Assembly (NCBI RefSeq): GCF_002210105.1
Contig: NZ_AQQU01000001.1
Location: forward strand, 1,276,501-1,340,500
Direction of reading: 5' to 3'
Length of the DNA stretch: 64,000 nucleotides
Source of the DNA: Oceanicola sp. 22II-s10i
GTDB lineage: Bacteria; Pseudomonadota; Alphaproteobacteria; Rhodobacterales; Rhodobacteraceae
In this document: positions 10,012-47,646 of the stretch, in pieces
Layout of the letters: each line of letters starts with the position of its first letter
How positions within the stretch are numbered: position 1 is the first letter of the stretch
Position numbers and translations under genes: made by a program
The notes under the pieces: generated by a model
Database searches by the model: none
What the model was told of the DNA's origin: nothing
The model's input: only the letters and a program-made list of their open reading frames with translations

Positions 10012-10028
10012 TTGCGCCGGCCGGGGCC

Positions 10029-10112
10029 CGTCGCGCGGGATCGTATCGAAAGGGCATCGAGCCCTTTCGATACGGCCTTCGGCGGGCATATTTCCGGCAA
10101 GATGAAGCTGGA
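10029..10112 (+). repeat. Intergenic hairpin element, family member R1
   Basis: Modular element: CGTCGCGCGGGA, then a perfect 14-bp hairpin (CGTATCGAAAGGGC at 10042-10055, loop ATCGA, GCCCTTTCGATACG at 10061-10074), then GGCCTTCGGCGGGC, ATATTT, and CCGGCAAGATGAAGCTGG. The same order, loop and flanks recur at 26561-26642 with different but still pairing stem arms. It may also terminate the upstream transglycosylase transcript, though no uridine run follows the stem. Confidence 0.75.
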
Positions 10113-10128
10113 GACCGTCAGGAACGCA

Positions 10129-10158
10129 AACGCGCCGCCCGGTGAGGGACGGCGCGTT
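10129..10158 (-). terminator. Terminator of the scoAB transcript
   Basis: A 9-bp stem AACGCGCCG/CGGCGCGTT has a 12-nt loop. On the minus strand it is followed by TGCGTTCC after the stem's own TT. It lies 21 bp past the scoB stop and is the natural end of the scoAB mRNA. Confidence 0.5.
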
Positions 10159-10178
10159 CGGTTCCTAAGCATGTGAGG

Positions 10179-10805
10179 TCAGCCGACGATGGTGGCTTCG
10201 GTCGAGTTGCGCATCTCTTCCTCGGTCACGCCGTCGGCGAGCTGCACGATCTTCAGACCGCCGTCGACCACGTCGAGCACCCCGAGGTTGGTGATGATGC
10301 GGTTGACCACGCCCTTGCCGGTCAGCGGCAGGGTGCATTCCTTCAGCACCTTGGTCTCGCCCGCCTTGTTGGTGTGATCCATCACCACGATGACGCGACC
10401 GACACCGGCCACGAGGTCCATCGCGCCGCCCATGCCCTTGACCAGCTTGCCGGGGATCATCCAGTTCGCGAGGTCACCGTTCTCGGCCACTTCCATGGCG
10501 CCCAGGATCGCCGCCGCGATCTTGCCGCCGCGGATCATGCCGAAGCTGGTGGCGCTGTCGAAATAGGCGGTGCGCTTGAGTTCGGTGATCGTCTGCTTGC
10601 CGGCGTTGATCAGGTCCGGATCCTCTTCGCCCTCGACGGGGAAGGGGCCCATGCCGAGCATGCCGTTCTCGGACTGGAGGGTGATGTCCTTGTCGCCCAC
10701 GTAGTTGGCGACGAGCGTCGGGATGCCGATCCCGAGGTTCACGTACATCCCGTCTTCGAGTTCCTCGGCCGCGCGGGCGGCCATCTGGTTGCGGTCCCAG
10801 GGCAT
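10179..10805 (-). CDS. scoB: 3-oxoacid (succinyl-CoA:acetoacetate) CoA-transferase, subunit B
   Basis: Beta subunit of a class I CoA-transferase that moves CoA between succinyl-CoA and acetoacetate in ketone-body and polyhydroxybutyrate breakdown. It has 208 residues, the usual length. Motifs: VNLGIGIPTLVANYV, then the catalytic-Glu signature QSENGMLGMGP near residue 46, then GGKIAAAILGAMEV and GMGGAMDLVAGVGRVIV. The ATG overlaps the scoA stop (TAATG), so it is translationally coupled. Reading-frame continuity upstream through scoA in another frame is a shadow. Confidence 0.93.
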   Translation of the reverse strand: MPWDRNQMAARAAEELEDGMYVNLGIGIPTLVANYVGDKDITLQSENGMLGMGPFPVEGEEDPDLINAGKQTITELKRTAYFDSATSFGMIRGGKIAAAILGAMEVAENGDLANWMIPGKLVKGMGGAMDLVAGVGRVIVVMDHTNKAGETKVLKECTLPLTGKGVVNRIITNLGVLDVVDGGLKIVQLADGVTEEEMRNSTEATIVG

Positions 10806-11509
10806 TACGCGGTCTCCTTCTTGCGCACGGTGCGCTGTTCGATGCGTTTCTCGTGCTCGCCCTGGATCAGGCGGTGCACGTAGACGCCGGGGAGGTGGAT
10901 CTTGTCGGGATCGAGCGACCCGGTCGGCACGATTTCCTCGACCTCGACCACGCAGACCTTGCCGCACATCGCGGCGGGCGGGTTGAAGTTGCGGGCGGTC
11001 TTGCGGAACACGAGGTTGCCGGTCTCGTCGGCCTTCCACGCCTTCACGATCGACAGGTCCGCGAAGATGCCGCGTTCGAGGATGTAATCCTGCCCGTCGA
11101 AATTCTTCAATTCCTTGCCCTCGGCGATCTGGGTGCCGACGCCGGTCTTGGTGTAGAAGCCGGGGATCCCCGAGCCGCCCGCGCGCATCCGCTCGGCCAG
11201 CGTGCCCTGCGGATTGAACTCCAGTTCCAGCTCGCCCGAGAGGTACTGGCGCATGAACTCGGCGTTCTCGCCCACATAGGACGACATCATCTTCTTGACC
11301 TGCTTGGTCTGGAGCAACATGCCGAGGCCGAAGTCGTCGACCCCGGCGTTGTTCGACGCGACCGTCAGATCCTTGGTGCCTGCGTCGCGGATCGCCGCGA
11401 TCAGCAGTTCCGGGATGCCGCACAGGCCGAAGCCGCCGGCGGCGATCAGCATGCCGTCGAACAACACCCCGTCGAGCGCCTCGGCTGCGGAGCCGTAGAC
11501 TTTCTTCAT
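10805..11509 (-). CDS. scoA: 3-oxoacid (succinyl-CoA:acetoacetate) CoA-transferase, subunit A
   Basis: Alpha subunit partner of scoB, 234 residues. The CoA-binding region is seen in [51 protein letters not shown] and [20 protein letters not shown], the standard pattern for the A subunit. GGAGGG lies 8 nt before the ATG. The pair forms a two-gene operon on the minus strand ending in the hairpin at 10129-10158. Substrate preference within the class (acetoacetate versus other 3-oxoacids) is inferred from closest motif resemblance. Confidence 0.93.
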
Positions 11510-11592
11510 TGGGAACCCTCCGTCTTGAGATTACCCAATGTCATGACGCCCGGCAGGTCCGGAGTCAACGGAATGCCGCACCGCGGCACCCG

Positions 11593-12183
11593 TCAGAGGA
11601 TGCGGACCTGCGTGCCGATCGGGGTGGCGGCGAAAAGCTCCTCGATCGCGAAGTTGTAGAGCCCGATGCAGCCGTCCGAGCTGCGGCGGCCGATCTTGCG
11701 CGTGTCGTGGGTGCCGTGGATCAGGTAGGCGGGCCAAGACAGGTACATCGCATGGGTGCCCAGCGGGTTGTCGGGGCCGGGGGGCATGTATTTCAGTTCC
11801 GGATTGCGTTCGACCATCGACGGCGTGGGGGTCCAGTCGGGGCCGACGCGCTTGCGCACGACCTCGGTGTAGCCGCGCTTGGTCAATTCGTCGGTCATCG
11901 GGACCGAGGTGGGGTAGATGCGGTAATCGCTGCCATCGGCGGACCAGTAGTGCAGCGCGCGCGAATTGGTATCCGCGACGATGGCGCCCTTGCCGAGGCT
12001 GTCGAAATGATCGCGCCAGTCCTGCCGCTGGAAGGACGAGATGTTGCGCCGCACGGACTCGGAGCCGCTGCGGTCGACCTCCTCGACCGGTATCGCGGTC
12101 TGTGCGCGCAGGATCGAGGGTGCGAACATCAGCGCGCCGGCGCCTGCGAGAAAGCGGCGCCGGGCCGGGCTGGTCTTGGTCAT
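11593..12183 (-). CDS. L,D-transpeptidase (YkuD domain), Tat-exported
   Basis: A 196-residue periplasmic enzyme expected to form 3-3 peptidoglycan cross-links or attach proteins to murein. The signal peptide has the twin-arginine pattern RRRFLAGAGALMF, so export is probably through Tat. The YkuD catalytic block is HGTHDTRKIGRRSSDGCIGL, with the nucleophile Cys near residue 170 and the conserved upstream His. Upstream, GTHAMYLSWPAYLIHG is the usual preceding strand. GGAG lies 8 nt before the ATG. No operon partner is evident. Confidence 0.93.
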   Translation of the reverse strand: MTKTSPARRRFLAGAGALMFAPSILRAQTAIPVEEVDRSGSESVRRNISSFQRQDWRDHFDSLGKGAIVADTNSRALHYWSADGSDYRIYPTSVPMTDELTKRGYTEVVRKRVGPDWTPTPSMVERNPELKYMPPGPDNPLGTHAMYLSWPAYLIHGTHDTRKIGRRSSDGCIGLYNFAIEELFAATPIGTQVRIL

Positions 12184-12280
12184 GTCGGGGTCTCCACTAT
12201 CCGTCTGTCAGCCGGGAAACTGGCGACTCGGGCGGCGGAGGGCCAATCACATACGCTTTACGTGATGTGTGTGTTGCACA

Positions 12281-12301
12281 AACCCGGCATTGCACCGGGT
12301 T
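12281..12301 (-). terminator. Hairpin downstream of topA
   Basis: A 7-bp stem AACCCGG/CCGGGTT has a 7-nt loop, 29 bp past the topA stop. On the minus strand it is followed by TGTGCAACAC. A weak candidate for the topA transcript end. Confidence 0.4.
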
Positions 12302-12329
12302 CGTGCCAAGGGCGATCGAAAGGGACGGC

Positions 12330-14915
12330 CTATTCAGCCGCCTTCTTCTTGGCCGGAGCCTTTTTCTTGGCTGCCGGTTTCTTCGCGGCAGCCTTCTTGG
12401 GCGCCGCTTTCTTGGCTGGGGCCTTCTTGCCGGACTTGGCTGCCTTTTCGGCGATCCATTCGACGGCCTGTTCCATCGTCACCGTCTCGGGCTCCACGTC
12501 CTTGGGGATGGTGGCGTTCACCTTCTCCCATTTCACGTAGGGCCCGTAGCGGCCGGGCATGACGGACACCATGCCGCCGCCGTCGGGGTGCTCACCCAGC
12601 TCCTTGAGCGGTTTGGCCGCGGCACCGCGGCCGCCGCGCATCGCCTTCTGCGCCAGCAGTTCGACGGCCCGGTTCATGCCGACCTCGAACACCTCGTCAA
12701 CGCTGGCGAGGTTGGCGTAGGTCTTGCCATGCCGGACGAAGGGGCCGTAGCGCCCGATCCCCGCCTCGACAGTCTCGCCGTCCTCGGGGTGCGGGCCGAT
12801 CTGGCGCGGCAGGTTCAGCAGCGTCAGCGCCTTTTCGAGGTCGATATCCTCGACCGCCCAGCCCTTGGGCAGGCTGGCGCGGGGCGGCTTCGGCACCTCT
12901 TCGGTCGCCTCGCCGCGCTGGACATAGGGGCCGAAGCGGCCGTCGCGCAGGGTGATCGCCTCTTCGTTGTCATAGCCGAGGATCTTGCCGTCGGGGCCGA
13001 TGGAATGATCCTCGGTGCCCGGCGGGCCGAAGGGCCGGGTGTAGCGGCATTCCGGGTAGTTGGAGCAGCCGATGAAGGCCCCGCCCGAGCGCGCGGTGCG
13101 CATCGACAGCCGTCCCGCGCCGCAGTTGGGGCACAGGCGCGGATCGCTGCCGTCCTCGGTCGGCGGGAACAGGTGCGGCTCCAGCACCTCGTTGATCTTT
13201 TCGAGAACCTCGGTGATCCGCAGTTCCGACGTTTCCGACAGCGCGGCGGAGAAGTCGCGCCAGAAACGGCCCAGCACGTCCTTGTAGTTCCGTTCGCCCG
13301 CCGAGACGTCGTCCAGCTCTTCTTCCAGTCCGGCGGTGAAGTCGTATTCCACGTAGCGGCGGAAGTAGTTCTCGAGGAAGGCGGTCACCAGACGGCCCTT
13401 GTCCTCGGGGATCAGGCGATTCGAGTCCTTGCGGACATAGCCGCGGTCCTGGATCGTGGTGACGATCGAGGCGTAGGTCGAGGGGCGGCCGATGCCGAGC
13501 TCTTCCATCCGCTTGACCAGCGTCGCCTCGGTGTAGCGCGGCGGGGGCTGGGTGAAGTGCTGGTCCGGGGTGATCTGGCCCTTCTTGGCGGGCTCGCCCT
13601 GCGAAATCTGCGGCAGGCGCTTGTCGTCGTCATCGACCACGGCATCGTCGCGGCCTTCCTCGTAGACCCGCAGGAAACCGTCGAACAGCACGACCTGACC
13701 GGTCGCGCGCAGTTCGACCTGGCCGTCGCGGCTGCCGACGTCGACCGTGGTGCGTTCCAGCCGCGCGCCTTCCATCTGGCAGGCCAGCGTGCGTTTCCAG
13801 ATCAGGTCGTAGAGCTTGCGCTGGTCCGCATCGGTGATCTTGAGCGCCGCGGCGTCCTTGGTCATCTCGGTCGGGCGGATGCACTCGTGCGCTTCCTGCG
13901 CGTTCTTGGCCTTGTTCTTGTAGATGCGCGGGCTGCCCGGCACGTAGTCCTTGCCGAAGCGTTCGGCGATGGCGTCGCGGGCGGCCTGCACCGCCTCGGG
14001 CGCCATGTCGATGCCGTCGGTCCGCATGTAGGTGATGTGCCCGGCCTCGTAGAGCCGCTGCGCCGCGCTCATCGTCTGGCGGGCGCCCATGCCGAACTTG
14101 CGGCTGGCTTCCTGCTGCAGGGTCGAGGTCATGAAGGGCGGCGAGGGGTTGCGGCTGGCCGGTTTTGCCTCGACCGACTTCACGGTCAGGTCGCGGCTGG
14201 TGATCGCCTGAACGGCCAGCTCGGCCTGCGTCTCGTTGGCGATGTCGTAGCGGTCGAGTTTCTTGCCCGCGAGGACCGTCAGCCGCGCCTCGTACTCCTG
14301 CCCGCGCGGGGTGGAGAGGATGGCCTTGACCGTCCAGTATTCTCGGGCGCGGAACGCCTCGATCTCCATCTCGCGCTCGACGATCAGGCGGAGGCAGACG
14401 GATTGCACGCGGCCCGCGGATTTCGCGCCGGGGAGCTTGCGCCACAGGACGGGGCTCAGGTTGAAGCCCACGAGGTAGTCGAGCGCGCGGCGGGCCAGGT
14501 AGGCCTCGACGAGGGGCGCATCGACCTGGCGCGGGTTCTTCATCGCCTCGGTCACGGCGGATTTGGTGATGGCGTTGAACACGACGCGGCTGACCGGCGT
14601 GTCCTTCTTGATCGCCTTGCGGTTCCGCAGCGCCTCCTCGAGGTGCCAGCTGATCGCCTCGCCCTCACGGTCGGGGTCGGTGGCGAGGATCAGGGCGTTG
14701 TCGTCCTTGAGCGCGTCGGCAATCGCTTTCACGTGTTTGCGACTGTCGGTCGCGATCTCCCATTTCATGTCGAATTCGTTGTCGGTGTCGACGGAGCCGT
14801 CCTTGGGCGGCAGGTCGCGGACATGGCCGTAGGAGGCCAGAACGGTGTAATCCGGGCCGAGATACTTGTTGATTGTCTTGGCTTTGGCCGGGGATTCCAC
14901 CACGACGACGGGCAT
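12330..14915 (-). CDS. topA: DNA topoisomerase I (type IA)
   Basis: Relaxes negatively supercoiled DNA; 861 residues. The ATG at 14915 is chosen because AAGGA precedes it and the TOPRIM domain begins at once (MPVVVVESPAKAKTINKYL). TOPRIM acidic triad in ATDPDREGEAISWHL. The active-site Tyr is in HITYMRTDGIDM near residue 295. A C-terminal four-Cys zinc ribbon (CPNCGAGRL ... GCSNYPEC) is followed by repeated topoisomerase C-terminal segments. The last ~40 residues are a Lys/Ala/Pro tail of KKAAPKKAAAKK type, typical of alphaproteobacterial TopA and likely DNA-binding. It sits downstream of dprA, as in many Rhodobacterales. Confidence 0.97.
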   Translation of the reverse strand: MPVVVVESPAKAKTINKYLGPDYTVLASYGHVRDLPPKDGSVDTDNEFDMKWEIATDSRKHVKAIADALKDDNALILATDPDREGEAISWHLEEALRNRKAIKKDTPVSRVVFNAITKSAVTEAMKNPRQVDAPLVEAYLARRALDYLVGFNLSPVLWRKLPGAKSAGRVQSVCLRLIVEREMEIEAFRAREYWTVKAILSTPRGQEYEARLTVLAGKKLDRYDIANETQAELAVQAITSRDLTVKSVEAKPASRNPSPPFMTSTLQQEASRKFGMGARQTMSAAQRLYEAGHITYMRTDGIDMAPEAVQAARDAIAERFGKDYVPGSPRIYKNKAKNAQEAHECIRPTEMTKDAAALKITDADQRKLYDLIWKRTLACQMEGARLERTTVDVGSRDGQVELRATGQVVLFDGFLRVYEEGRDDAVVDDDDKRLPQISQGEPAKKGQITPDQHFTQPPPRYTEATLVKRMEELGIGRPSTYASIVTTIQDRGYVRKDSNRLIPEDKGRLVTAFLENYFRRYVEYDFTAGLEEELDDVSAGERNYKDVLGRFWRDFSAALSETSELRITEVLEKINEVLEPHLFPPTEDGSDPRLCPNCGAGRLSMRTARSGGAFIGCSNYPECRYTRPFGPPGTEDHSIGPDGKILGYDNEEAITLRDGRFGPYVQRGEATEEVPKPPRASLPKGWAVEDIDLEKALTLLNLPRQIGPHPEDGETVEAGIGRYGPFVRHGKTYANLASVDEVFEVGMNRAVELLAQKAMRGGRGAAAKPLKELGEHPDGGGMVSVMPGRYGPYVKWEKVNATIPKDVEPETVTMEQAVEWIAEKAAKSGKKAPAKKAAPKKAAAKKPAAKKKAPAKKKAAE

Positions 14916-15038
14916 GAGCGGTCCTTTCTGTGCGACGCTGACGCGTTGGCGGCGGACCATGTGGGGTTTGCCGGGCGGATGTCAATGCGCCTGCTGGACC
15001 GGGGCGGCGCCGCTCCTCCCGCCTGACGGCGCGCCTCG

Positions 15039-16214
15039 CTAGCTGGGGCGCGCCGGGGGACGCAGGGCGATCAGGCCGCCGGGATGGCGTTCGACATCGC
15101 CCGAGATCTCGAGGTCGAGGATCGCCGGCGACAGCTGCCGGGGGGTGCCGCCGAGGTCGCGGATCAGCTGGTCCTCGGCCACGGGGGAGGGGCTGAGTCG
15201 GTCAAGGATCCGGCGATGCAGGGCAGCGGTTTCGCGCAGGGTCCGCGTTTCGGGCTGAGCCGGGGGAATCGGAACGGCCGGGCCGAGGTCGAGAGCTGCC
15301 TGACGGTCGGGTTCGGCGGCTGGCAGGCCGATCGCCTCGATCACATCGGCAGCGTTGCGGACCAGCCGCGCGCCGTCGCGAAGCAGCATGTTGCACCCGG
15401 CGGAACGTCCGTCCAGCGGATGGCCGGGCACCGCCAGCACCTCGCGGCCCTGATCGAGCGCGGTGCGGGCGGTGATGAGGCTGCCGGACCGCGCGGCGGC
15501 CTCGACCACGACGACACCGCGGGCGAGGCCGGAAATCAGGCGGTTGCGGAGCGGGAAGTGCCGGGCGACGGGCTGCAGCCCCATGGGTTGTTCGCTGAGG
15601 CGCAGGCCCGTGGCGGCCATATCGGTGGCCAGCCCGGCGTTTTCGGCGGGGTAGAGCATGTCGACCCCGCCCGCCATGACGCCGATGGTTCCGGTGCCCA
15701 GTGCCGCGTGATGTGCCGCCGCGTCGATCCCGCGGGCGAGACCCGAGACGACCACGTATCCGGCCGCCCCGAGGTCTTCGGCCAGGGCGCGGGCCATGCG
15801 TGTGCCGAGCGACGAGGCGTTCCGGGCCCCGACGATGGCGATGCGGGGCCGGTCGAGCACCGTTTGGTCGCCATGTGCCCACAGGATCGGGGGCGGGTCA
15901 GGAATCGTCAGGAGGTCGTCGGGATAATCGGGGCTGCCGATGCAGATCATCCGCGTTCCGGCCTGCGCCGCAGCGCGAAGCTCGGCCTGTGCGACCTCGG
16001 GCGGGCAGGGGCGATAGTCCGGCACCCCCGCCGCCGCGGCGATGTCCGGCAGGGCATCGAGCGCGGCAGCGGCGGAGCCGTGTTCCGTGAGCAGTCTGTA
16101 GAATGTCGCGATCCCGACCCGGCGGGAGCGCAAGAGACGAAGCCACGACAGCCGACCATCTTCCGTGGTGGGTGGGAGTGGGGGGTGAGTGGAAGGATGT
16201 GTATCCTCGACCAT
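15039..16214 (-). CDS. dprA: DprA, DNA-processing (RecA-loading) protein
   Basis: Binds incoming single-stranded DNA and loads RecA in natural transformation. In Rhodobacter it is needed by recipients of gene-transfer-agent DNA. It has 391 residues from the ATG at 16214, chosen because GGAG lies 5 nt upstream; the frame extends to 16277 without a ribosome site. An N-terminal SAM-like region is followed by the Rossmann DprA core with IVGARNASSLGTRMARALA, SGLARGIDAAAHHAAL and FPLRNRLISGLARGVVVVEA. A C-terminal winged helix (LSPAILDLEISGDVERHPGG) ends the protein. Upstream sequence carries TTAACC-type sites resembling CtrA boxes. Confidence 0.94.
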   Translation of the reverse strand: MVEDTHPSTHPPLPPTTEDGRLSWLRLLRSRRVGIATFYRLLTEHGSAAAALDALPDIAAAAGVPDYRPCPPEVAQAELRAAAQAGTRMICIGSPDYPDDLLTIPDPPPILWAHGDQTVLDRPRIAIVGARNASSLGTRMARALAEDLGAAGYVVVSGLARGIDAAAHHAALGTGTIGVMAGGVDMLYPAENAGLATDMAATGLRLSEQPMGLQPVARHFPLRNRLISGLARGVVVVEAAARSGSLITARTALDQGREVLAVPGHPLDGRSAGCNMLLRDGARLVRNAADVIEAIGLPAAEPDRQAALDLGPAVPIPPAQPETRTLRETAALHRRILDRLSPSPVAEDQLIRDLGGTPRQLSPAILDLEISGDVERHPGGLIALRPPARPS

Positions 16215-16253
16215 CGTGACTCCGCCTGCTTGCAGAATCAGGAATAGCGCATG

Positions 16254-16303
16254 AGCGGTTAACCAAGCGTGAATCACATGGTTAATGGGCTAGGTCATTA
16301 ACC
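16254..16303 (-). promoter_or_regulatory. Candidate CtrA-type sites upstream of dprA
   Basis: Three TTAACC-like half-sites stand within 50 bp. On the minus strand, exact TTAACCAT at 16278-16285 is paired with TGGTTAA near 16259-16265 (TTAACCA-N13-TGGTTAA), and another TTAA block lies at 16298-16302. The 8-mer TTAACCAT is the CtrA half-site known from Caulobacter and Rhodobacter. They lie 40-85 bp before the dprA start. CtrA control of dprA is established in R. capsulatus; here it is inferred from sequence only. Confidence 0.5.
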
Positions 16304-16383
16304 CGAGGCATTCCACACGGGGCTTGATGGACCGGTTGCGCCTGGGGCAATGTCGCTGCGCAGCCGCGAGGGGGAACGCGCCC

Positions 16384-17028
16384 ATGACGACCGCCACCGG
16401 GGACGACAGACGCCGCCAGATCGTCGAAGGTGCCTTTGCCGCCCTACAGGCGCGGGGGCTGCCGCATCTGTCCTATGACGCGATTGCGGAACAGGCCGGG
16501 CTGACGCGGCAGCTTGTCCGCTATCATTATCCCGATCCCGACAGCCTGATGCTGGAACTCTGCGACATGATGGCCGCGATCTATCGCGATGTCCTGATCT
16601 CGACCGCAGGCAGTCTCAGCGGACCGGCGCGGGTCGATGCCTTTCTGGACTTCTACTTCGACATGCTCGACGGCACGGTCAAACCGCGTGACGACAAGGT
16701 CTATGACGCGCTGGTGTCGCTCTCGGCGGGGTCCGAGGCCGTACGTATCAAGCTGGGCGACCAGTATCGCCTGATCGGGCAGGTCCTGTCGCACGAATTC
16801 TCGGTGCAGTTTCCGGACCTCGACCATCAGGCCGCCGAGGAACTGTCGTGGCTGTTCGTCTGTCTCATGTACGGTCACTGGAAAATGGTCGCATCGCTCG
16901 GCTTCGACGATGCGCACCGGACCATTTCGCGGCAGGCAATGGACCGGCTGATTCGCTCGTATTGCGACCACCGCAGCGACCCCGCGGCGCAAACCGAGGT
17001 CTGGCGCCGGCGTGCCTCGGAAAGCTGA
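16384..17028 (+). CDS. TetR/AcrR-family transcriptional regulator
   Basis: A 214-residue one-component repressor. The N-terminal TetR helix-turn-helix is clear: RRQIVEGAFAALQARGLPHL then AIAEQAGLTRQLVRYHYPDP. The C-terminal ligand domain is unassigned. The ATG at 16384 is chosen because GAGGGGGA lies upstream; an in-frame ATG at 16324 would add 20 residues with an Arg/Cys-rich, non-family N terminus. It has no same-strand neighbours, its divergent neighbour is dprA, and no obvious operator palindrome was found. The target is unknown. Confidence 0.88.
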   Translation: MTTATGDDRRRQIVEGAFAALQARGLPHLSYDAIAEQAGLTRQLVRYHYPDPDSLMLELCDMMAAIYRDVLISTAGSLSGPARVDAFLDFYFDMLDGTVKPRDDKVYDALVSLSAGSEAVRIKLGDQYRLIGQVLSHEFSVQFPDLDHQAAEELSWLFVCLMYGHWKMVASLGFDDAHRTISRQAMDRLIRSYCDHRSDPAAQTEVWRRRASES

Positions 17029-17370
17029 ACTTTCGTTTTGGAAAAATCTCCCGCTATGCGTGTGTATAATGACGCTTGGCACTGGCTAAGTGCCGCTAGG
17101 TAAGCGATTTCCGGGCCGAAGGACTTCAGCGCGCCGAAAAAGCGGTTTTTCAAAACGAAAAGGGCTTTTCAAGCGCTTTGACAGGGTGCGGTCGGGTGAG
17201 TCTTGATGCAGTCATTCAATGACGAAGTGACTGCAAAACAAGACTTTTCGATGATGTAGGCCTTAAATGGCGGGGTATCGCAGTCGGGCATTTGCCTGTA
17301 ACGGGACCGCGTGCCCCGCCGATAAGGTGGCCCATGTTGCGATCAGTCGTGAAGATGCAGTCGCGGCCGA
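17029..17370. other. 342-bp gene-free region between tetR-type gene and tldD, possible small RNA
   Basis: No plausible CDS. It contains GAAAAA-GCGG-TTTTTC (17136-17151), a TTGACA at 17178-17183 with a weak -10-like hexamer 17-18 bp later, and then GCAGTCA-N13-TGACTGC near 17212-17238. A longer GGCGGGG ... CCCCGCC pair follows around 17273-17320. Together these could be a promoter and a structured transcript of 100-150 nt, but no uridine-run terminator was found, so this stays a hypothesis. Confidence 0.3.
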
Positions 17371-17380
17371 TCAGGCCGCG
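17362..17380 (-). terminator. Palindrome spanning the tldD stop codon
   Basis: CGCGGCC-GATCA-GGCCGCG forms a 7-bp stem with the tldD stop in its loop on the minus strand. There is no T run after it. It could slow ribosomes or protect the 3' end; terminator function is uncertain. Confidence 0.3.
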
Positions 17381-18792: not shown

Positions 18793-18822
18793 CGGTTTGC
18801 CTCGGTTCGGCGGGGTGCGGGG

Positions 18823-18836
18823 TTGATCCAGATCAA
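18823..18836 (+). promoter_or_regulatory. FNR box upstream of ctaC
   Basis: TTGATCCAGATCAA is a perfect TTGAT-N4-ATCAA FNR/FnrL dyad. It is 133 bp before the ctaC start and 30 bp before tldD. Unlike the boxes at ccoN, uspA and hemN, no good -10 hexamer lies 22-23 bp away in either direction. The nearest, CATTAT, is about 25 bp away toward ctaC. The site may therefore repress, or activate from a shifted position. Confidence 0.7.
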
Positions 18837-18969
18837 AAAAGCGTCCGTTTGCCGCAAGCCGCATTATTGTCGTGGGCACCAGAATATGGTTTTAAGCGGC
18901 GACAAACAACGCGGGCCGGCGGGAATCCGTCATGCTCTGCTGCGGAACACTCAACCATCAGGGTGCATA

Positions 18970-19872
18970 ATGCGACGTATTCTCAGCCTTTTCGCGCTTC
19001 TGGCCGCAACCGCCATGCCCGTGGCGGCACAGGACAGCGGTGTGGTCGGCAAACCCCACGAAGGCGGCATGGGCTTCCAGGTCGCCGCGACCGAGCTGGC
19101 CAGCGACATTCACTGGCTCGACCACATGATCCTGATCATCATCACGGTGATCACGATCTTCGTCTGCGCCCTGCTGGCGATCGTCATCCTGCGCTACAAC
19201 AGCCGCGCCAACCCGAAGCCGGCCAAGTTCACGCACAACACCCCGGTCGAAGTCGCATGGACGATCATCCCGATCGTGATCCTCGTCTTCATCGGCGCCT
19301 TCTCGCTGCCGGTCCTGTTCAAGCAGCAGGAAATCCCCGAGGGCGACATCACCATCAAGGTGACCGGCTACCAGTGGTACTGGGGCTATGAATACGTCGA
19401 CGCGCCCGAAGAAGTGCTGTTCGACAGCTACATGATCGGCCAGCCCGCCACCATGACGGGCGAGGACGAGAGCGCGGGCGCAAGCGCCTACGTCCTGTCG
19501 GACGCCATGAAGGCCAAGCTGGTCGCGGCGGGCTATGCCGAGGACGAGTTCCTGCTGGCAGTGGACAAGCCGGTCATCGTGCCGGTCGGCAAGGTCATCG
19601 TGATGGATGTGACCGGCGCCGACGTGATCCACTCCTGGACCATTCCTGCCTTCGGCGTGAAGCAGGACGCCGTGCCGGGCCGTATCGCACAGCTGTGGTT
19701 CCGCCCCGAGATCGAAGGCACGTTCTTCGGCCAGTGTTCGGAACTCTGCGGCAAGGACCACGCCTATATGCCGATCGCCGTGAAGGTGGTCAGCGAGGCG
19801 ACCTACGAGGCCTGGCTGGCCGCGACTCAGGAAGCGGGCGAATACGTCCAGCTCTCCGCCCTGACCAACTGA
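18970..19872 (+). CDS. ctaC: Cytochrome c oxidase (aa3) subunit II
   Basis: Cu-A subunit of the aerobic aa3 oxidase; it accepts electrons from cytochrome c. It has 300 residues. A signal peptide ([20 protein letters not shown]) is followed by two membrane helices ([20 protein letters not shown] and [20 protein letters not shown]). Next come the aromatic QWYWGYEY strand and the Cu-A loop [20 protein letters not shown] with its Cys, Cys, His and Met ligands. A ~35-residue insertion near residues 155-190 ([20 protein letters not shown]) is common in Rhodobacterales. It leads the ctaC-ctaB-small ORF-ctaG-ctaE operon. Subunit I is absent from the window. Confidence 0.97.
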
Positions 19873-19922
19873 TACGGCAGCGCGCCGGATGACCGGCGCG
19901 CAACCCTGAAGGCAAGACCGAC

Positions 19923-20861
19923 ATGACCGACGCAAGCATCAATACGCAGGTCCAGGAGGGCGAGGCCGGGTTCGGCGATTTCGTCGCGCTGCTGAAGCCG
20001 CGCGTGATGTCGCTGGTGGTCTTCACCGCCGCCGTCGGCCTGCTGGCCGCGCCGGTTTCCGTGCACCCGTTCCTCGCCTTCTGCGCCGTGCTGTTCATCG
20101 CGCTCGGCGGCGGGGCCTCGGGCGCGCTGAACATGTGGTACGATTCCGACATCGACGCCGTGATGAAGCGCACCGCGCGCCGTCCGATCCCGTCGGGCAA
20201 GGTCGCGCCGCAGGACGCGCTGGCGCTTGGCCTCGCGCTGTCGGTGCTCTCGGTCGTCATGCTGGGGCTGGCCGCGAACTGGCTGGCCGCCGGTCTGCTG
20301 GCCTTCACCATCTTCTTCTACGCCGTCGTCTACACGATGTGGCTCAAGCGCTGGACGCCGCAGAACATCGTGATCGGCGGCGCCGCGGGCGCCTTCCCCC
20401 CGATGATCGGCTGGGCCGTCGCCACCGGCGGCATCTCGCTGGAATCGGTGCTGATGTTCGCGCTGACCTTCATGTGGACCCCGCCGCACTTCTGGGCGCT
20501 GGCGCTGTTCATGAACTCGGACTACGAAAAGGCCGGTGTGCCGATGCTGACCGTGACCCACGGCCGCCGCTCCACCCGCCGCCATGTCCTCGCCTACACC
20601 CTGCTGCTGGCGCCGGTCGCCGTCGGCATCGCCTTCACCTCGATCGGCGGGCCGGTCTACCTGACGGTGTCGGTGATCCTGAACCTGCTGTTCATCAAGG
20701 GCGCCTTCGACATCCTGCGCCGTGACGAAGCCGTGGCCGAGGCGGACAAATACCGGGTGGAGAAGCGTTTCTTCGCGCTGTCGCTGCTCTATCTCTTCCT
20801 GCACTTCGGCGCGATCCTCGCCGAAGCCGCGCTGAAGCCCTGGGGGCTCGGGGGATGGTGA
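19923..20861 (+). CDS. ctaB: Protoheme IX farnesyltransferase (heme O synthase)
   Basis: UbiA-family membrane prenyltransferase that adds farnesyl to haem B, giving haem O, the precursor of haem A for the aa3 oxidase. It has 312 residues and about eight or nine membrane helices. The Asp-rich motif is [20 protein letters not shown], and the second Asp region is [18 protein letters not shown]. It follows ctaC by 50 bp and ends in TGATG overlap with the next small gene, so the pair is coupled. Confidence 0.96.
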
Positions 20862-21037
20862 TGCAGTTTCGCGAAGAGCATGAACTTCACAAGCGCCGGT
20901 GGAGCCGGAATCTCGGGCTCGGCCTCGTGCTGGCCGCATTCGTGGCGCTCGTTTTCGGCATGACCGTGGTCAAGGTGTCCAACACGGACTTCTCCAACGC
21001 TCCGGGCGCCACGCCCCAGCAGACGGGGACGAAGTGA
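20861..21037 (+). CDS. Small single-helix membrane protein of the cta operon (CoxF-like)
   Basis: A 58-residue protein: short basic N-tail ([19 protein letters not shown]), one membrane helix ([20 protein letters not shown]), and a short polar tail. A gene of this size and position, between ctaB and ctaG, is standard in Rhodobacterales and is often labelled CoxF. Its role in oxidase assembly is not established. The ATG at 20861 overlaps the ctaB stop (TGATG). An in-frame ATG two codons earlier is possible. Its stop overlaps the ctaG start in the same way. Confidence 0.82.
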
Positions 21038-21624
21038 TGGCGATGAAGGGCACCACGAAGACGCTGGTCGCGACGCTTGGCACCGTGGTGGTGATGGGCG
21101 CGCTGGCCTGGGCGTCGGTGCCGTTCTACAACTGGTTCTGCCGTGTCACCGGTTTCGGCGGTGTCACCAACACCGCCTCGGCGGGCAGCGACGTGATCCT
21201 GGACCGCACCGTCAAGGTGCGCTTCGACGCGAACACCGATGCCGCCATGCCGTGGGAATTCAAGCCGGTCCAGAAAACGATGGAAATCCGGCTGGGCGAA
21301 ACCGGGCTGGCCTTTTACGAGGCCTACAACCCGACCGACCGCGTGATCGCGGGCACCGCCAGCTACAACGTCGCCCCCTACGAGGCGGGCAACTACTTTA
21401 CCAAGATCGACTGCTTCTGCTTCACCATGCAGGTGCTGCAGCCGGGTGAGCGGGTGCAGATGCCCGTGACCTTCTTCGTCGATCCCGAACTGGTGGACGA
21501 CCGGGACGCGAAGTTCATACATTCGATCACGCTGTCCTACACCTTCTACGAAACCGACCTGCCCGAAGACCTGGCCGCCAACAGCGCGTCAGAGCAGAAG
21601 CAGGCGGATACGAACACGAACTGA
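21037..21624 (+). CDS. ctaG: Cytochrome c oxidase assembly protein CtaG/Cox11
   Basis: Copper chaperone that delivers Cu-B to oxidase subunit I. It has 195 residues, one N-terminal membrane anchor ([20 protein letters not shown]), then a periplasmic Ig-like domain. The copper-binding Cys pair is in [20 protein letters not shown], and [15 protein letters not shown] supplies a third conserved Cys. The start is the ATG overlapping the previous stop (TGATG). The polar C-terminal tail after YTFYETDL is poorly conserved. Confidence 0.96.
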
Positions 21625-21646
21625 GAGGCTCCAACGAGGGACCGAT

Positions 21647-22447
21647 ATGGCGCACGTCAAGAACCACGATTATCACATCCTGCATCCGTCGATCCAACCG
21701 TTCCTCGGTGCGGTCGGCGCTTTCATCATGCTCTTCGGGGCGGTCCTGTTCTTCCACGACCACGGTCCGTGGATGCTGCTGCTCGGGTTCGTGATGACGC
21801 TGTACGTCATGTACGCGTGGTGGTCCGAGACCGTCGCCGAGAACAAGGCGGGCGATCACACTCCCGTCGTCCGGCTGGGCCTGAAGTACGGGTTCATCCT
21901 GTTCATCATGTCCGAGGTCATGTTCTTCGTGACGTGGTTCTGGACCTTCTTCAAACACGCCATGTACCCCATGGGCCCCGCGTCGCCGGGCATCGACGGC
22001 CAGTGGCCGCCGCAGGGGATCGAGACCTTCGACCCGTGGCACCTGCCGCTGATCAACACGCTGATCCTGCTGTGCTCGGGCGCGGCTGCAACCTGGGCGC
22101 ACCATGCGCTGGTGCATGAGAACAACCGCAAGGACATCAAGTCGGGCCTGATCCTGGCGATCATCCTCGGCGCGCTGTTCACCGTGTTCCAGATCTACGA
22201 ATACAGCCACGCCGCCTTCGGGTTCTCCGGCAACATCTACGGCGCGACCTTCTTCATGGCGACCGGCTTCCACGGCTTCCACGTCCTGATCGGCACGATC
22301 TTCCTGTTCGTCTGCCTGATGCGCGTCTACGCCGGCCACTTCACCCCGGAAAACCACGCCGGGTTCGAAATGGCGGCCTGGTACTGGCACTTCGTCGACG
22401 TCGTGTGGCTGTTCCTGTTCGCCGCCGTCTACATCTGGGGCGGCTGA
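21647..22447 (+). CDS. ctaE: Cytochrome c oxidase (aa3) subunit III
   Basis: A 266-residue, seven-helix core subunit of the aa3 oxidase that stabilises subunit I. Recognisable segments: [20 protein letters not shown], the helix-III region [20 protein letters not shown] with its conserved Glu, the HALVHENN loop, and the C-terminal [20 protein letters not shown] signature. It lies 22 bp after ctaG and is the last structural gene before two hairpins and SURF1. Confidence 0.97.
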
Positions 22448-22453
22448 GCCAGA

Positions 22454-22472
22454 GGCGGGGGCAAACCCCGCC
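22454..22472 (+). terminator. GC hairpin after ctaE
   Basis: GGCGGGG-GCAAA-CCCCGCC is a 7-bp perfect stem 6 bp past the ctaE stop, followed by CTAAGGCGAG without a T run. It may stabilise the 3' end of the cta mRNA or work together with the stronger hairpin just downstream. Confidence 0.4.
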
Positions 22473-22490
22473 CTAAGGCGAGAATGACGG

Positions 22491-22524
22491 AAGGCGCGAC
22501 GCGGGTCGCGCCTTCGGCTTTTGA
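22491..22524 (+). terminator. Intrinsic terminator immediately before the SURF1 gene
   Basis: AAGGCGCGAC-GCGG-GTCGCGCCTT is a 10-bp perfect stem with a 4-nt loop, followed by CGGCTTTT. Its T stretch ends at the SURF1 ribosome-binding site (AGGAGAG), so transcription reaching SURF1 must read through the hairpin or start within it. Confidence 0.65.
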
Positions 22525-22535
22525 GGAGAGCGGTC

Positions 22536-23213
22536 TTGCGCAATTTACTGATGGTTCTGGTGGTCGGCCTGGGCGGCGTCGCGGTGCTGCTGTCGCTGGG
22601 CACATGGCAGGTCCAGCGCCTGCAGTGGAAGCAGGAGGTGCTGGCCGACATCGAGGCGCGCATCGCAGCGGACCCCGTCGCGCTGCCCGATGCGCCGGAC
22701 CCGGAGGCCGACCGCTACCTGCCCGTGCAGGTCACCGGCGTCCCCGGCGCCCCGATCCTGCAGGTGCTGGCCAGCGCCAAGAACATCGGCGCGGCGCACC
22801 GCCTGATCGTGCCGTTCGAAACCGAGGGCGGGCGCCGCATCCTCGTCGATCTGGGCTTCCTGCGCGACGGCGAACCGTTGCCCGGACTGCCGCCCGTGCT
22901 TGAGGTGACGGGCAACCTGCACTGGCCGGACGAGGTCGACGGCTTCACCCCCGAACCGGACACCCGCGCGAACCTGTGGTTCGCCCGCGACGTCCCGCGC
23001 ATGGCCGCGGCGCTCGACACCGAACCGCTGCTGGTGGTCCGCAGGTCCGGCACCGCGATTCCCGGCCTGTTGTCGATGCCGGTCGATACGGCCGGAATTC
23101 CCAACGATCACTTCGAATATGCCGTCACATGGTTCGGGCTGGCGGCAATCTGGCTGGCGATGACCGGATTTCTGGTCTATCGCATGCGCAAAACGCCAAG
23201 AGGGACGACGTGA
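22536..23213 (+). CDS. SURF1-family oxidase assembly protein
   Basis: Assists haem A insertion into cytochrome oxidase. It has 225 residues with the SURF1 topology of two membrane helices at the ends (LLMVLVVGLGGVAVLLSLGT and TWFGLAAIWLAMTGFLVYRM) and a periplasmic loop. Motifs are GTWQVQRLQWK, LVDLGFLRDGEPLPG and NDHFEYAVTWFGLA. The start is taken as TTG at 22536 because AGGAGAG lies 5-6 nt before it; the longer frame from 22521 would place that ribosome site inside the gene. It overlaps the thrC start (GTGA). Confidence 0.9.
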   Translation: MRNLLMVLVVGLGGVAVLLSLGTWQVQRLQWKQEVLADIEARIAADPVALPDAPDPEADRYLPVQVTGVPGAPILQVLASAKNIGAAHRLIVPFETEGGRRILVDLGFLRDGEPLPGLPPVLEVTGNLHWPDEVDGFTPEPDTRANLWFARDVPRMAAALDTEPLLVVRRSGTAIPGLLSMPVDTAGIPNDHFEYAVTWFGLAAIWLAMTGFLVYRMRKTPRGTT

Positions 23214-24598
23214 AATATATCTCGACCCGCGGGCAGGCGCCCGACCTGACATTCGAAGAGGCGATGCTGACCGGCCTCGCCCGTGACGGCGGCCTCTACG
23301 TGCCCGAAACCGTCCCGACCATGAGCGCCGAGGACATCGCAGCGCTCGGTGGCCTGAGCTACGAGGAAACCGCGTTCCGCGTGATGCGCCCCTTCATCGG
23401 CGGCGCGTTCGAGGACGGCGAGCTGCGCGCGATCATCTCGCGCGCCTACGAGGGCTTCGAACACGCCGCCCGCGCGCCGCTGGTGCAGCTCGAGCCGAAC
23501 CACTTCCTGCTGGAGCTGTTCCACGGCCCGACGCTGGCGTTCAAGGATTTCGCCATGCAGCTGATCGGCCAGCTGTTCCAGGCGTCACTGACCCGCTCGG
23601 GCAATCGCGTGACCATCGTCGGCGCCACCTCGGGCGACACCGGCTCCGCCGCGATCGAGGCCTTTGCCGGGCTGGACAATGTGGACGTCTTCATCCTGTT
23701 CCCGGACGGCAAGGTGTCCGAGGTGCAGCGCCGCCAGATGACCACGCCCGACGCCGAGAACGTGCACGCCATCGCGCTGGACGGCAACTTCGACGACTGC
23801 CAGGCGCGGCTGAAGGACATGTTCAACGACCACGACTTCCGCGACGAGGTCGGACTGGCGGGCGTGAACTCGATCAACTGGGCACGGGTGCTGGCGCAGG
23901 TCGTCTATTACTTTTCCTCCGCCGTCTCGCTCGGCGCGCCGCATCGCAAGGTGTCGTTTACGGTCCCGACCGGCAACTTCGGCGACATCTTCGCAGGCTA
24001 CATCGCGCAGAAGATGGGCCTGCCGATCGAACGCCTGATCATCGCGACGAACCAGAACGACATCCTGCACCGCTGCCTGACGACGGGTGAATATCGCACC
24101 GACAAGGTGACGCCCTCGATCAGCCCCTCGATGGACATCCAGGTGTCGTCCAACTTCGAACGCGTCCTGTTCGACGTCTACGACCGCGACGGCAGCGCCG
24201 TGTCCCAGCTGATGGACGAACTGAAATCCGGCGGCTTCACCGTCAGCCAGGGCGCGCTGGAGCGCCTGCGCGAAACCTTCGACAGCGGCCGCGCCTCCGA
24301 GGAGGAAACCAGCGCCACCATCGCGCACCAGCGCGAGGTGACGGGCGAACTCCTCTGCCCGCATTCCGCCGTCGGCGTGAAGGTGGCCGAGGAACTGCGC
24401 GATCCGGCCGTGCCGATGATCACGCTCGCCACGGCGCATCCGGCGAAATTCCCCGATGCGGTCGAAGCCGCCGCCGGAACCCGGCCGGGGCTTCCCCCGT
24501 TTCTCCAGAGCCTGTATGACCGCGAAGAGCGGGTGACGAAGGCCGGCAACGACCTCGCCGCCCTGCAATCCCTGATCAGAGAGCGCCGCCGCACGTGA
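23210..24598 (+). CDS. thrC: Threonine synthase
   Basis: PLP enzyme converting O-phosphohomoserine to threonine. It has 462 residues, the long bacterial form. The N-terminal domain is KYISTRGQAPDLTFEEAML. The PLP lysine is residue 112 in TLAFKDFAMQ. The phosphate/PLP loop VGATSGDTGSAAIEAF and SINWARVLAQVVYYF follow. The start is GTG at 23210 with AGAGGGA upstream; it overlaps the SURF1 stop, and its own stop overlaps the next gene. Translation of SURF1, thrC, the M16 peptidase and the acetyltransferase is probably linked. Confidence 0.96.
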   Translation: MKYISTRGQAPDLTFEEAMLTGLARDGGLYVPETVPTMSAEDIAALGGLSYEETAFRVMRPFIGGAFEDGELRAIISRAYEGFEHAARAPLVQLEPNHFLLELFHGPTLAFKDFAMQLIGQLFQASLTRSGNRVTIVGATSGDTGSAAIEAFAGLDNVDVFILFPDGKVSEVQRRQMTTPDAENVHAIALDGNFDDCQARLKDMFNDHDFRDEVGLAGVNSINWARVLAQVVYYFSSAVSLGAPHRKVSFTVPTGNFGDIFAGYIAQKMGLPIERLIIATNQNDILHRCLTTGEYRTDKVTPSISPSMDIQVSSNFERVLFDVYDRDGSAVSQLMDELKSGGFTVSQGALERLRETFDSGRASEEETSATIAHQREVTGELLCPHSAVGVKVAEELRDPAVPMITLATAHPAKFPDAVEAAAGTRPGLPPFLQSLYDREERVTKAGNDLAALQSLIRERRRT

Positions 24599-25857
24599 CC
24601 ACCGACTACCACACGCTTCCCAACGGATTTCGCATCGTCACCGAACAGATGCCCGGCCTGCAGTCCGCAGCCATCGGCATCTGGGTTTCGGCCGGTGGCC
24701 GGCACGAGACCGAGGCGGAAAACGGCATCGCGCATTTCCTCGAACACATGGCGTTCAAGGGCACGACCACGCGGACGGCGCTGATGATCGCCGAACAGAT
24801 CGAGGACGTGGGCGGCTACATCAACGCCTACACCTCGCGCGAGGTGACGGCCTACTATGCCCGTGTGCTCAAGGACGACGTGCCGCTGGCGATGGAGGTG
24901 ATCTCCGACATCCTGCGCAACCCGACCTTCGAGGACAGCGAGATCGAGGTGGAACGCGGGGTGATCCTGTCCGAGATCGGGCAGGCGCTGGACACGCCCG
25001 ACGACGTGATCTTCGACTGGCTGCAGGAACAGTGCTATCCCGACCAGCCGCTCGGTCGCACGATTCTCGGCCCGGCGGAACGTGTCCGGTCCTTCGGCAA
25101 GGAGGACCTGCGCCGCTTCATCACCGAGCACTACGGCCCGGAGCAGATGATCCTCACCGCCGCCGGCGCGGTGGATCACGACGCCATCGTCCGTCTGGCC
25201 GAGGCGCTGTTCGGCGACATGACCCCGCGCGCGGAATACGACATCCCGACGGCCCGGTTCCGGGGCGGCGAGGTGCGGCAGGTCAAGAAGCTGGAACAGT
25301 CCCACTTCGCGCTGGCGCTCGAAAGCCCGGACTACCGGCACCCCGACGCCTACGCGGCGCAGATCTATGCCACCGCGCTCGGCGGCGGCATGTCCTCGCG
25401 CCTGTTCCAGGAAATCCGCGAAAAACGCGGCCTCTGCTATACGATCTACGCGCAGGCCGGGGCATATGCGGACACCGGCGTGACGACGATCTACGCGGGC
25501 ACCGCGCCGGACCAGCTCAAGGCGCTGGCGGACATCACGATCGACGAGATGAAGCGCGCCGCCGAGGACATGACCGACGCCGAGATCGCCCGCGCCCGCG
25601 CCCAGATGAAAGCCGGGCTGCTGATGGGGCTGGAAGGCCCCTCCAGCCGCGCGGAACGACTGGCCCGAATGCTCCAGATCTGGGGCCGTGTGCCGCCCAT
25701 CGAGGAGGTGGTCGAAAAGATCGACGCGGTCACGACCGAGGACATCCGCCGCTTCGCCGAACACATGGCGGTCAAGGCACCCGCCGCGCTGGCCATCTAT
25801 GGCCCGAAAGGTCCGGCGCCGCGCCTCGGCGACCTGCAGGTGCGGCGCGCGGCCTGA
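24595..25857 (+). CDS. M16-family zinc metallopeptidase (processing-peptidase-like)
   Basis: A 420-residue inverzincin peptidase resembling mitochondrial processing peptidase beta and bacterial PqqL/YmxG proteins. The zinc motif HxxEH is HFLEH with His47, Glu50 and His51. The downstream Glu is in EVERGVILSEIGQALDTPDD. The second half holds the inactive domain, GGGMSSRLFQEIREKRGLCY. It is a single-domain-pair version that acts as a dimer in relatives. It has a GTG start overlapping the thrC stop. No signal peptide, so likely cytoplasmic. The substrate is unknown. Confidence 0.92.
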   Translation: MTTDYHTLPNGFRIVTEQMPGLQSAAIGIWVSAGGRHETEAENGIAHFLEHMAFKGTTTRTALMIAEQIEDVGGYINAYTSREVTAYYARVLKDDVPLAMEVISDILRNPTFEDSEIEVERGVILSEIGQALDTPDDVIFDWLQEQCYPDQPLGRTILGPAERVRSFGKEDLRRFITEHYGPEQMILTAAGAVDHDAIVRLAEALFGDMTPRAEYDIPTARFRGGEVRQVKKLEQSHFALALESPDYRHPDAYAAQIYATALGGGMSSRLFQEIREKRGLCYTIYAQAGAYADTGVTTIYAGTAPDQLKALADITIDEMKRAAEDMTDAEIARARAQMKAGLLMGLEGPSSRAERLARMLQIWGRVPPIEEVVEKIDAVTTEDIRRFAEHMAVKAPAALAIYGPKGPAPRLGDLQVRRAA

Positions 25858-26441
25858 TGCTGACCCGGCGGCGGAAGGTCAAGATCGAGACGGAGCGCAT
25901 GACCCTGCGCCCGCCGGTCCACGCCGATTGGCGCGCCTGGTCGGACCTCAGGCAGGAAAGCGAAGCCTACCTTGCCCGCTGGGAACCGACCTGGGCAACG
26001 GACCACCTGTCCCGCAAGGCTTTCACCAACCGCGTCTACTGGGCGCAGCGCTCTGTCTCGGGCGGCACGGCCCTGCCGATGTTCCTGATGCGCCGCTCGG
26101 ACGACGCCCTGCTGGGGGCCATCACCCTCGACAACATCCGCCGCGGGCCCGCGCAGTCGGGCACACTCGGCTACTGGACCGGCGAACGCCACGCGCGGCA
26201 GGGCTACATGCGAGAGGCGATTGCGGCGATGGTCCATCACGCCTTCCATCGGCTCGACCTGAGCCGCATCGAAGCCGCCTGCCTGCCGGAAAATGCACCG
26301 TCTCGCAGTCTGCTTGAAAGCTGCGGTTTCAAATACGAAGGCGTGGCGCAGAGCTACCTCCAGATCGACGGCCGCTGGCGAACTCACGTTCTCTACGCCG
26401 CGCTCCGCATGGACCGGCGCGGCAAGACTGTCACGGGCTGA
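25857..26441 (+). CDS. GNAT N-acetyltransferase (RimJ-like)
   Basis: A 194-residue acetyltransferase of the RimJ/RimL group, which acetylate protein N-termini, often ribosomal. Motifs: IETERMTLRPPVHADW at the N terminus, the acetyl-CoA loop GYWTGERHARQGYMREAIAA, and IEAACLPENAPSRSLLESCG. The ATG at 25857 overlaps the M16 stop (TGATG). It ends the SURF1-thrC-M16 series. The target protein is not known. Confidence 0.88.
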   Translation: MLTRRRKVKIETERMTLRPPVHADWRAWSDLRQESEAYLARWEPTWATDHLSRKAFTNRVYWAQRSVSGGTALPMFLMRRSDDALLGAITLDNIRRGPAQSGTLGYWTGERHARQGYMREAIAAMVHHAFHRLDLSRIEAACLPENAPSRSLLESCGFKYEGVAQSYLQIDGRWRTHVLYAALRMDRRGKTVTG

Positions 26442-26448
26442 TCCCCGG

Positions 26449-26480
26449 CTTCATCTGGCGGATTAAACTCCGGGGGAGGC
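26449..26480 (-). repeat. Intergenic element, family member R3 (inverted partner of R2)
   Basis: Read on the minus strand: GGCCTCCCCCGGAGTTTAAT then CCGCCAGATGAAGCC. This is the GGCCTCCGGCGG / AGTTTA / CCAGATGAAG module without an obvious stem-loop on its 5' side. It starts 7 bp after the acetyltransferase stop and faces away from R2, 80-130 bp further on. Confidence 0.6.
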
Positions 26481-26560
26481 CGGCCATGGGCCGGACGGGA
26501 GCAGAGCCCCCATCGACACCGCCGCCCGTGCAAGTACCACGTTTTGCGCCGGCTTGAAGC

Positions 26561-26642
26561 CGTCGCGCGGGGAACGTGGCATCCGGGCATCGAGCCCGGA
26601 CGCCACGGCCTCCGGCGGGAGTTTACTTGGCCAGATGAAGCG
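26561..26642 (+). repeat. Intergenic hairpin element, family member R2
   Basis: Same architecture as R1 at 10029: CGTCGCGCGGGGAA, a 14-position hairpin with one mismatch (CGTGGCATCCGGGC at 26575-26588, loop ATCGA, GCCCGGACGCCACG), then GGCCTCCGGCGGGA, GTTTAC and TTGGCCAGATGAAGCGGG. Stem arms differ from R1 at about half of the positions yet remain complementary. It lies between the acetyltransferase and SulP genes, close to the end of the convergent SulP gene. Confidence 0.75.
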
Positions 26643-26660
26643 GGGGATCTGGGTAGCGGC

Positions 26661-47633: not shown

Positions 47634-47646
47634 CAAGTAAGAGAAT

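Follow-up and report, generated by a model that had tools for sequence, protein, structure and literature searches.

A probable composite repeat of the REP/BIME kind, with variable but paired stems, between the genes of Oceanicola sp. 22II-s10i and related Rhodobacterales

The stretch of DNA analysed here (64,000 nucleotides, referred to as the window) comprises positions 1276501-1340500 of contig NZ_AQQU01000001.1 (C1) in the 5.11 Mb genome of Oceanicola sp. 22II-s10i and carries two intergenic copies of an element with a full length of about 105 nt. The element is composed of a left hairpin region (TTGCGCC..GTCGCGC), a 14-bp hairpin with the loop ATCGA, the letters CCTCCGGCGGG, a T-rich core, and AGATGAAGC. 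We suggest that it is probably a new composite repeat similar to the repetitive extragenic palindromic (REP) sequences and bacterial interspersed mosaic elements (BIME), that is, short non-coding DNA which spreads over many intergenic sites by copying or conversion. This suggestion is based on the copy number, the modular anatomy, the paired change of stems under a fixed loop and tail, and the placement of the elements, as well as on the absence of a co-directional orientation preference, a presence/absence difference between genomes, the similarity of copies within genomes, and an asymmetry of stem mismatches that is independent of gene direction. The parts of the two copies, in window positions, are as follows:

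10012..10115, + strand: copy 1, whole element, directly 3' of the TGA stop (10009-10011) of a transglycosylase-domain gene
10014..10036, + strand: copy 1, left hairpin region GCGCC..GTCGCGC
10042..10074, + strand: copy 1, variable hairpin with a 14-bp stem and the loop ATCGA at 10056-10060
10076..10108, + strand: copy 1, conserved tail, i.e., CCTTCGGCGGG, the T-rich core and AAGATGAAGC
26544..26648, + strand: copy 2, whole element
26546..26568, + strand: copy 2, left hairpin, present in the computed fold
26575..26607, + strand: copy 2, variable hairpin, a 14-bp stem with one A.C mismatch and the loop ATCGA at 26589-26593
26609..26641, + strand: copy 2, conserved tail

An earlier note on this DNA described two hairpins with a common left flank, loop and tail, and its coordinates agree with the letters: CGTCGCGCGGG starts at 10029 in copy 1 and at 26561 in copy 2, the tail begins with CCTTCGGCGGG at 10076 and with CCTCCGGCGGG at 26609, and AGATGAAGC ends at 10108 and 26641, respectively. 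Pairing of each stem with its own partner, perfect over 14 bp in copy 1 and with a single mismatch in copy 2, is likewise as described. Hairpin and tail thus lie where they had been placed, but the unit is larger and begins at TTGCGCC (10012 and 26544). In RNA folding, both strands of both copies perform better than 200 of 200 shuffles, with z-scores of -7.2 for copy 1 and -3.6 for copy 2. When the left part is added, the left hairpin forms in the minimum-energy fold of copy 2; it is absent from that of copy 1, in which the same letters prefer other partners.

Variation of the stem was analysed in two sets of copies. The seed alignment (A1) included ten ATCGA copies of equal geometry, chosen by loop and tail from 15 rows; the loci L015, L019, L171, and L017 were omitted for their length, although paired, and L049 as an edge hit. 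In A1, 98.6% of the 140 stem cells are paired and 10 of the 14 pairs are altered on both sides, the covariation score being 0.743 against 0.161 in shuffles, while slid controls reach at most 42.1% of paired cells. The inner four pairs do not provide independent evidence because the A1 loci were gathered partly by the apex string. The wider set comprises 53 distinct ATCGA copies from 14 genomes, each with at least seven Watson-Crick pairs among the first ten, and has 701 Watson-Crick cells of 742, compared to a mean of 406 and a maximum of 448 in 500 shuffles of the arms; this percentage is biased upward by the pairing filter and because many copies were found through the structure model. The outermost pair is C-G (26 copies), G-C (22), or T-A (5), and the second is G-C (40), C-G (10), A-T (2), or C.A (1); the stem is followed by GCCTCCGG. 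The A1 covariation and the pairing of the 53 copies support the proposal of the earlier note that selection acts on the folded form. Stems changing without compensation, the outcome which it had set against this proposal, were not observed: the arms compensate.

The family is represented by many copies in the source genome. A tail model of 36 columns, trained on half of C1 (1,596,207 bases, 31% of the genome) and used at a cut-off of 28 bits with reversed sequence as the control, finds 59 places on this contig, those used for training among them, and none in the control; six of the 59 are in the window. In 80 named loci, 11 places reach 24 bits, compared with none in the control. These 59 places on C1 alone exclude the presence of only two copies, which the earlier note had named as the result of a genome search that would speak against its proposal. 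Genome-wide, CCTYCGGCGGGNNTATTT with up to two mismatches occurs 50 times (2 in the reversed control), and a 17-letter tail core with up to one mismatch occurs 106 times (49 + 57; none in the control). BLAST with copy 1 at E up to 10 returns 43 places in the genome, including copy 1 itself, many of them matching in the tail only. Many palindromic intergenic copies per genome, a feature by which REP/BIME are recognised, are therefore present. In the window itself, CCTYCGGCGGG with up to one mismatch (12 matches against 11.1 expected) and GGCATCGAGCCC (4 against 1.5 expected) are unremarkable, so the evidence beyond chance is provided by the genome-wide counts.

Placement of the elements relative to genes, for which we used our own simple gene caller on C1 and in relatives, is strongly biased. 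One of the 59 elements lies inside a called gene and was omitted; among the 58 intergenic or stop-overlapping ones, 27 are in convergent gaps (p 4e-9), none is in a divergent gap (p 1e-10; 33% of the intergenic length taken into account is divergent), and the co-directional gaps hold 16 in sense and 15 in antisense orientation. Two of the convergent elements extend by 22 nt into the opposed gene as called. Similarly, 20 convergent, 15 sense, 15 antisense, and 3 divergent ones are counted among the 53 ATCGA elements, a set that shares four members with C1. A stop codon is often touched by whichever end of the element faces it: the tail end lies within 6 nt of the opposed stop in 10 of the 15 antisense co-directional elements of C1 (two overlapping), and the estimated left end lies within 10 nt of the stop or overlaps it in 11 of the 15 sense co-directional ATCGA elements, six of these 15 left gaps having negative values, as a default left edge was taken where the left hairpin was not recognised. 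Five opposed pairs with starts less than 200 nt apart (10 of the 59 elements) are found on C1, including the window pair 26441/26613, and such pairs occur also in the loci L352 and L354.

Both window copies are in convergent gaps. Copy 1 lies between the transglycosylase-domain gene (+, stop 10009-10011) and a CoA-transferase gene (-, ends 10179), and copy 2 between a GNAT acetyltransferase gene (+, ends 26441) and a sulfate-permease-family gene (-, ends 26661). An opposed element (26441-26511, -) sits in the gap of copy 2 too. A second G+C hairpin, ACGCGCCG..CGGCGCGT, adjoins copy 1 at 10130-10157.

The frequent contact with stop codons bears on a possible, though rather unlikely, alternative, namely that the element is an intrinsic terminator of Rhodobacterales, in which a G+C hairpin is followed by TATTT/TTTAT, the downstream AGATGAAGC modulates release, and the stems drift by compensation. 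The T-rich core indeed stands 3' of G+C-rich letters in most of the copies listed, and several relatives lacking the element have, as judged by eye, ordinary terminator-like hairpins in the corresponding gaps. However, the orientation is free relative to the genes, which argues against a plain terminator, and the T-rich core looks by eye equally intact in the antisense copies. A terminator scan requiring 5 T in 8 reports neither window copy, though TATTT/TTTAT is present. Moreover, G.U pairs in the stems are rarer than A.C (4 against 16), as compared to 30 against 16 in 107 one-sided T-run terminators of C1. In Bacillus cereus terminators, G.U is described as the commonest intermediate (PMC5381666). 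Hence, the idea of a transcript 3'-end module, raised in the earlier note, holds with respect to the adjoining stop codons but not with respect to orientation.

The third idea of that note, a protein-binding site, would make the element a chromosomal target of, e.g., a nucleoid or segregation protein. The constancy of loop and tail over many copies suits this explanation; still, we consider it very improbable because a double-stranded site needs no variable-yet-paired stem and because the elements do not clearly prefer one strand with respect to the GC-skew switch of C1 (33 of 59 are on the G-rich strand). For the latter reason, a segregation or skew-oriented motif was dismissed.

The rare mismatches of the stems are distributed unequally between the strands. 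Among the 41 mismatched cells of the 53 copies, those of the T-run strand are 4 G.U, 1 A.G, 16 A.C, and 20 C.C or C.U; on the opposite strand, on which the tail comes first, the last 36 are read as the milder G.U, G.G, and G.A. The mismatches therefore speak for folding of this tail-first strand, with a ratio of 5 to 36. This ratio differs from 53 to 37 in the 107 one-sided T-run terminators of C1 (p 4e-7; 14 two-sided terminators, 2 against 1, left out) and from 28 to 22 in 72 hairpins which precede such tails but are of other types (p 2e-5; 7 symmetric cases omitted), these p-values being nominal because the 53 copies are related to each other. Counted by element, the asymmetry is 2 against 26 with 2 tied; divided by the neighbouring gene, it is 1 to 8 for sense, 1 to 10 for antisense, and 3 to 17 for convergent elements. 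Being equal in all gene orientations, the asymmetry is not tied to the transcript of the neighbouring gene, and folding of one DNA strand would explain it.

The same asymmetry could be attributed to RNA if the opposite strand encoded a 3'-untranslated-region element, in which a fixed leader (the reverse complement of the tail) starts within a few nucleotides behind the opposed gene and is succeeded by the hairpin, the latter stabilising or processing the mRNA of this gene. The closeness of the tail ends to opposed stops and the preferred folding of the tail-first strand would fit such a role. Nevertheless, it seems improbable, since equally many copies face the other way with the same asymmetry (8 against 1), while it is absent from the 72 tail-preceding hairpins of the other types.

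Comparison of orthologous gaps points to turnover of the elements and, probably, exchange of their stems. In the gap of copy 1, 4 of the 19 other genomes of the genus have an element with the loop ATCGA or ATTGA, whose stems differ and in some cases contain two or three mismatches; by eye, two further genomes have a shorter form, and two have a GGGGG-type hairpin before a similar tail. Several relatives without the element hold ordinary terminator-like hairpins in this gap, also by eye. For copy 2, no ATCGA element was found in the 260 nt before the stop of the partner gene in any of the 19 genomes, two of which gave hits to a distant paralog. In the corresponding gap of Pseudooceanicola nanhaiensis (reverse complement of L171, 19031-19330), we observed unrelated palindromes, including GGTGCGTGCTTGCACGCACC, and in one more genome (G209:C1:474566-476170) the sulfate-permease-family gene has one internal TGA.

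A further comparison is with genome G202, taken as P. nanhaiensis DSM 18065, only 4 of whose 16 ATCGA elements have both flanks on C1. Two of these four gaps possess the element in both genomes with wholly different stems; the third is longer in C1 (1.2 against 0.2 kb), where two elements with a different type of hairpin lie in opposed orientation; the fourth measures only 34 nt in C1, as compared to 170 nt in G202, and has no element there. Copy 1 differs from the element at C1:1458248 in 1 of the 14 stem pairs, and each of them is wholly unlike its own counterpart in G202, which suggests transfer or conversion of a whole stem between copies. Whole stems were probably transferred or converted in this way besides any stepwise compensation, which need not explain every change of the arms. 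Proof of an empty site in close strains was not obtained, the nearest genome compared being too distant (75-88% DNA identity).

The covariance model built from the ten A1 copies matches all 20 genomes of the genus that were searched (E up to 0.01) and 98 of 121 genomes of the order (E up to 0.001), the source genome being included in both counts; outside the genus, many of the matches examined are other hairpins ahead of the same kind of tail. The 17-letter tail core is present in 52 of 196 genomes of the order, with at most 16 occurrences per genome outside the source genome; since it is abundant in the latter and sparse elsewhere, the tails are lineage-specific. Copies within a genome resemble each other: among the 53 copies, tail identity is 87% within against 71% between genomes, and identity of the outer arms is 50% against 37%, none of 500 label permutations being as high in either case. 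The closest named genome among the 80 loci is that of P. nanhaiensis (TldD 93% identical). In a plasmid collection queried with copy 2, no match was found at E 0.01.

We suppose that the REP/BIME-like element would survive where it is least harmful, at a distance from promoters and in many cases immediately 3' of a stop codon. Its hairpin may persist because copying or processing of the element would require the folding of one of its single strands, with the constant loop and tail presumably serving as the recognised parts, and its spread may involve gene conversion or some enzyme. Hairpins transcribed from a neighbouring gene may end or protect its mRNA as a side effect or a secondary use. 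In a narrower and unlikely version of this scheme, the working molecule is the tail-first DNA strand with its ATCGA hairpin, copied or converted between sites by an enzyme other than the known Y1 transposases (RAYT, the REP-associated tyrosine transposases) so that whole stems are exchanged; from it one would expect stems wholly different in orthologous gaps, mismatches that are mild on this strand only, irrespective of gene direction, and indifference to transcription.

Several facts weigh against the proposed copying of a REP/BIME-like repeat. Y1_Tnp, the domain of the RAYT transposase family, was not found in the source genome and is detected in 13 of the 121 genomes of the order (12 over the cut-off), as compared to 98 with covariance model matches; a RAYT-driven REP was therefore dismissed. 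The presence/absence case is represented by one empty gap, and some loci, such as the gap of copy 1, retain the element for a long time, which suits a useful feature too. The position of the T-rich core after G+C-rich letters is terminator-like. Disruptive mid-stem mismatches might also be favoured in the T-run strand, and the other hairpin types before such tails lack the asymmetry, which limits the strand argument to the ATCGA type. Nevertheless, the mobile non-autonomous repeat considered in the earlier note provides the best fit with respect to placement, the empty gap, and within-genome similarity, although a transposase was not found.

Four further members of the family are located in the window:

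26441..26511, - strand: opposed GGGGG-type element in the gap of copy 2; its tail (26441-26476) extends to the acetyltransferase stop codon
47380..47452, + strand: GGGGG-type element, tail 47417-47452
47559..47672, - strand: element preceded by a module containing TTACTTGG, tail 47559-47594, left edge approximate
54292..54347, - strand: GGGGG-type element, tail 54292-54327, left edge approximate

By our own reading, the tail has three subtypes in the source genome, and the hairpin modules ahead of it include the ATCGA hairpin with the TTGCGCC..GTCGCGC region, the GGGGGCTCTGCCCCC type, and others. One tail behind different hairpin modules makes the family a mosaic arrangement. In the three GGGGG-type elements, a hairpin GGGGGC..GC(C/T)CCC stands before the same tail, and a second CCCCC run ahead of the T-rich core gives the G arm two possible partners. 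An A+T-rich inverted repeat, AAAATTCTTCGAAGAATTTT, is directly before the GGGGG-type element of L274 (G203), and its diverged form is present in L272 (G200). A TTACTTG module following a G+C hairpin precedes several tails, i.e., those at window 47559-47672 (-) and at C1 809199, 1040747, 1114375, 1324059, and 1486834; it was described by eye only, since a pattern scan, being too strict, gave no matches. At C1:1417735-1417830, two elements are joined tail to tail by the palindrome GGGATCGATCCC, and other palindromic joints occur in L006 and L007. TTGCGCC left hairpins located away from tails could represent an autonomous parent element. However, all five intergenic ones on C1 are within 250 nt of a tail, and the remaining ten are inside called genes, a number similar to that in the reversed control (12), so the parent was dismissed.

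REP-like repeats shape gene ends in many bacteria, and the family described here offers many Rhodobacterales copies, orthologous gaps which differ in whole stems, and possibly an internal record of the strand on which selection for folding acts.

The element did not fit any of the described families that were tested. In the window, no Rfam family reaches its gathering threshold, and at 26430-26680 the best score is 19.3 bits against a threshold of 45. Terminal inverted repeats, a mark of miniature inverted-repeat transposable elements, were not noticed by eye. In the open-licence literature searched, no description of the family was found, though it may be described elsewhere, and the tail letters led only to titles on other subjects, one of them on Caulobacter (PMC6538847). 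Similarly to the intrinsic terminators with compensating stems (PMC5381666), the hairpin is retained through changes of the stem letters; it differs from them in its free orientation to genes, rare G.U pairs, and fixed loop and long downstream tail. The HRC-8-4 motif of Rhodobacterales (PMC8632094) is also a terminator-like hairpin with a conserved tip. It occurs mostly in one context, ccoP/ccoG, while copies 1 and 2 adjoin other genes, and no tail was found in the 450 nt around the ccoG start of the source genome; this comparison is by context only.

The closest analogues are the REPs, which, according to PMC3733652, are intergenic, occupy convergent and co-directional gaps, and lie close to 3' ends. 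The CGTC-tagged REPs described there are mainly from alpha-Proteobacteria, and the paper raises the question of how they spread without a dedicated transposase; our element shares with them the taxonomic position, the lack of a dedicated transposase found, and CGTC in the left flank. However, their CGTC is at the foot of an 8-9-bp stem, while here it is in the left hairpin region, 9-10 nt away from a 14-bp stem; A-T pairs in the first and second stem positions, which mark these REPs, are not characteristic here, their CCA tail is absent, and a scan of the window for the CGTC-REP pattern gave no matches. With REP/BIME as a class (PMC3733652), the element shares the features tested, namely many intergenic palindromic copies, placement in convergent or co-directional gaps near 3' ends, and some opposed pairs; it is distinguished from them by its composite build (about 105 nt, two hairpin regions, and a long conserved tail that is not palindromic), a widely varying stem sequence, and several hairpin modules preceding the same tail.

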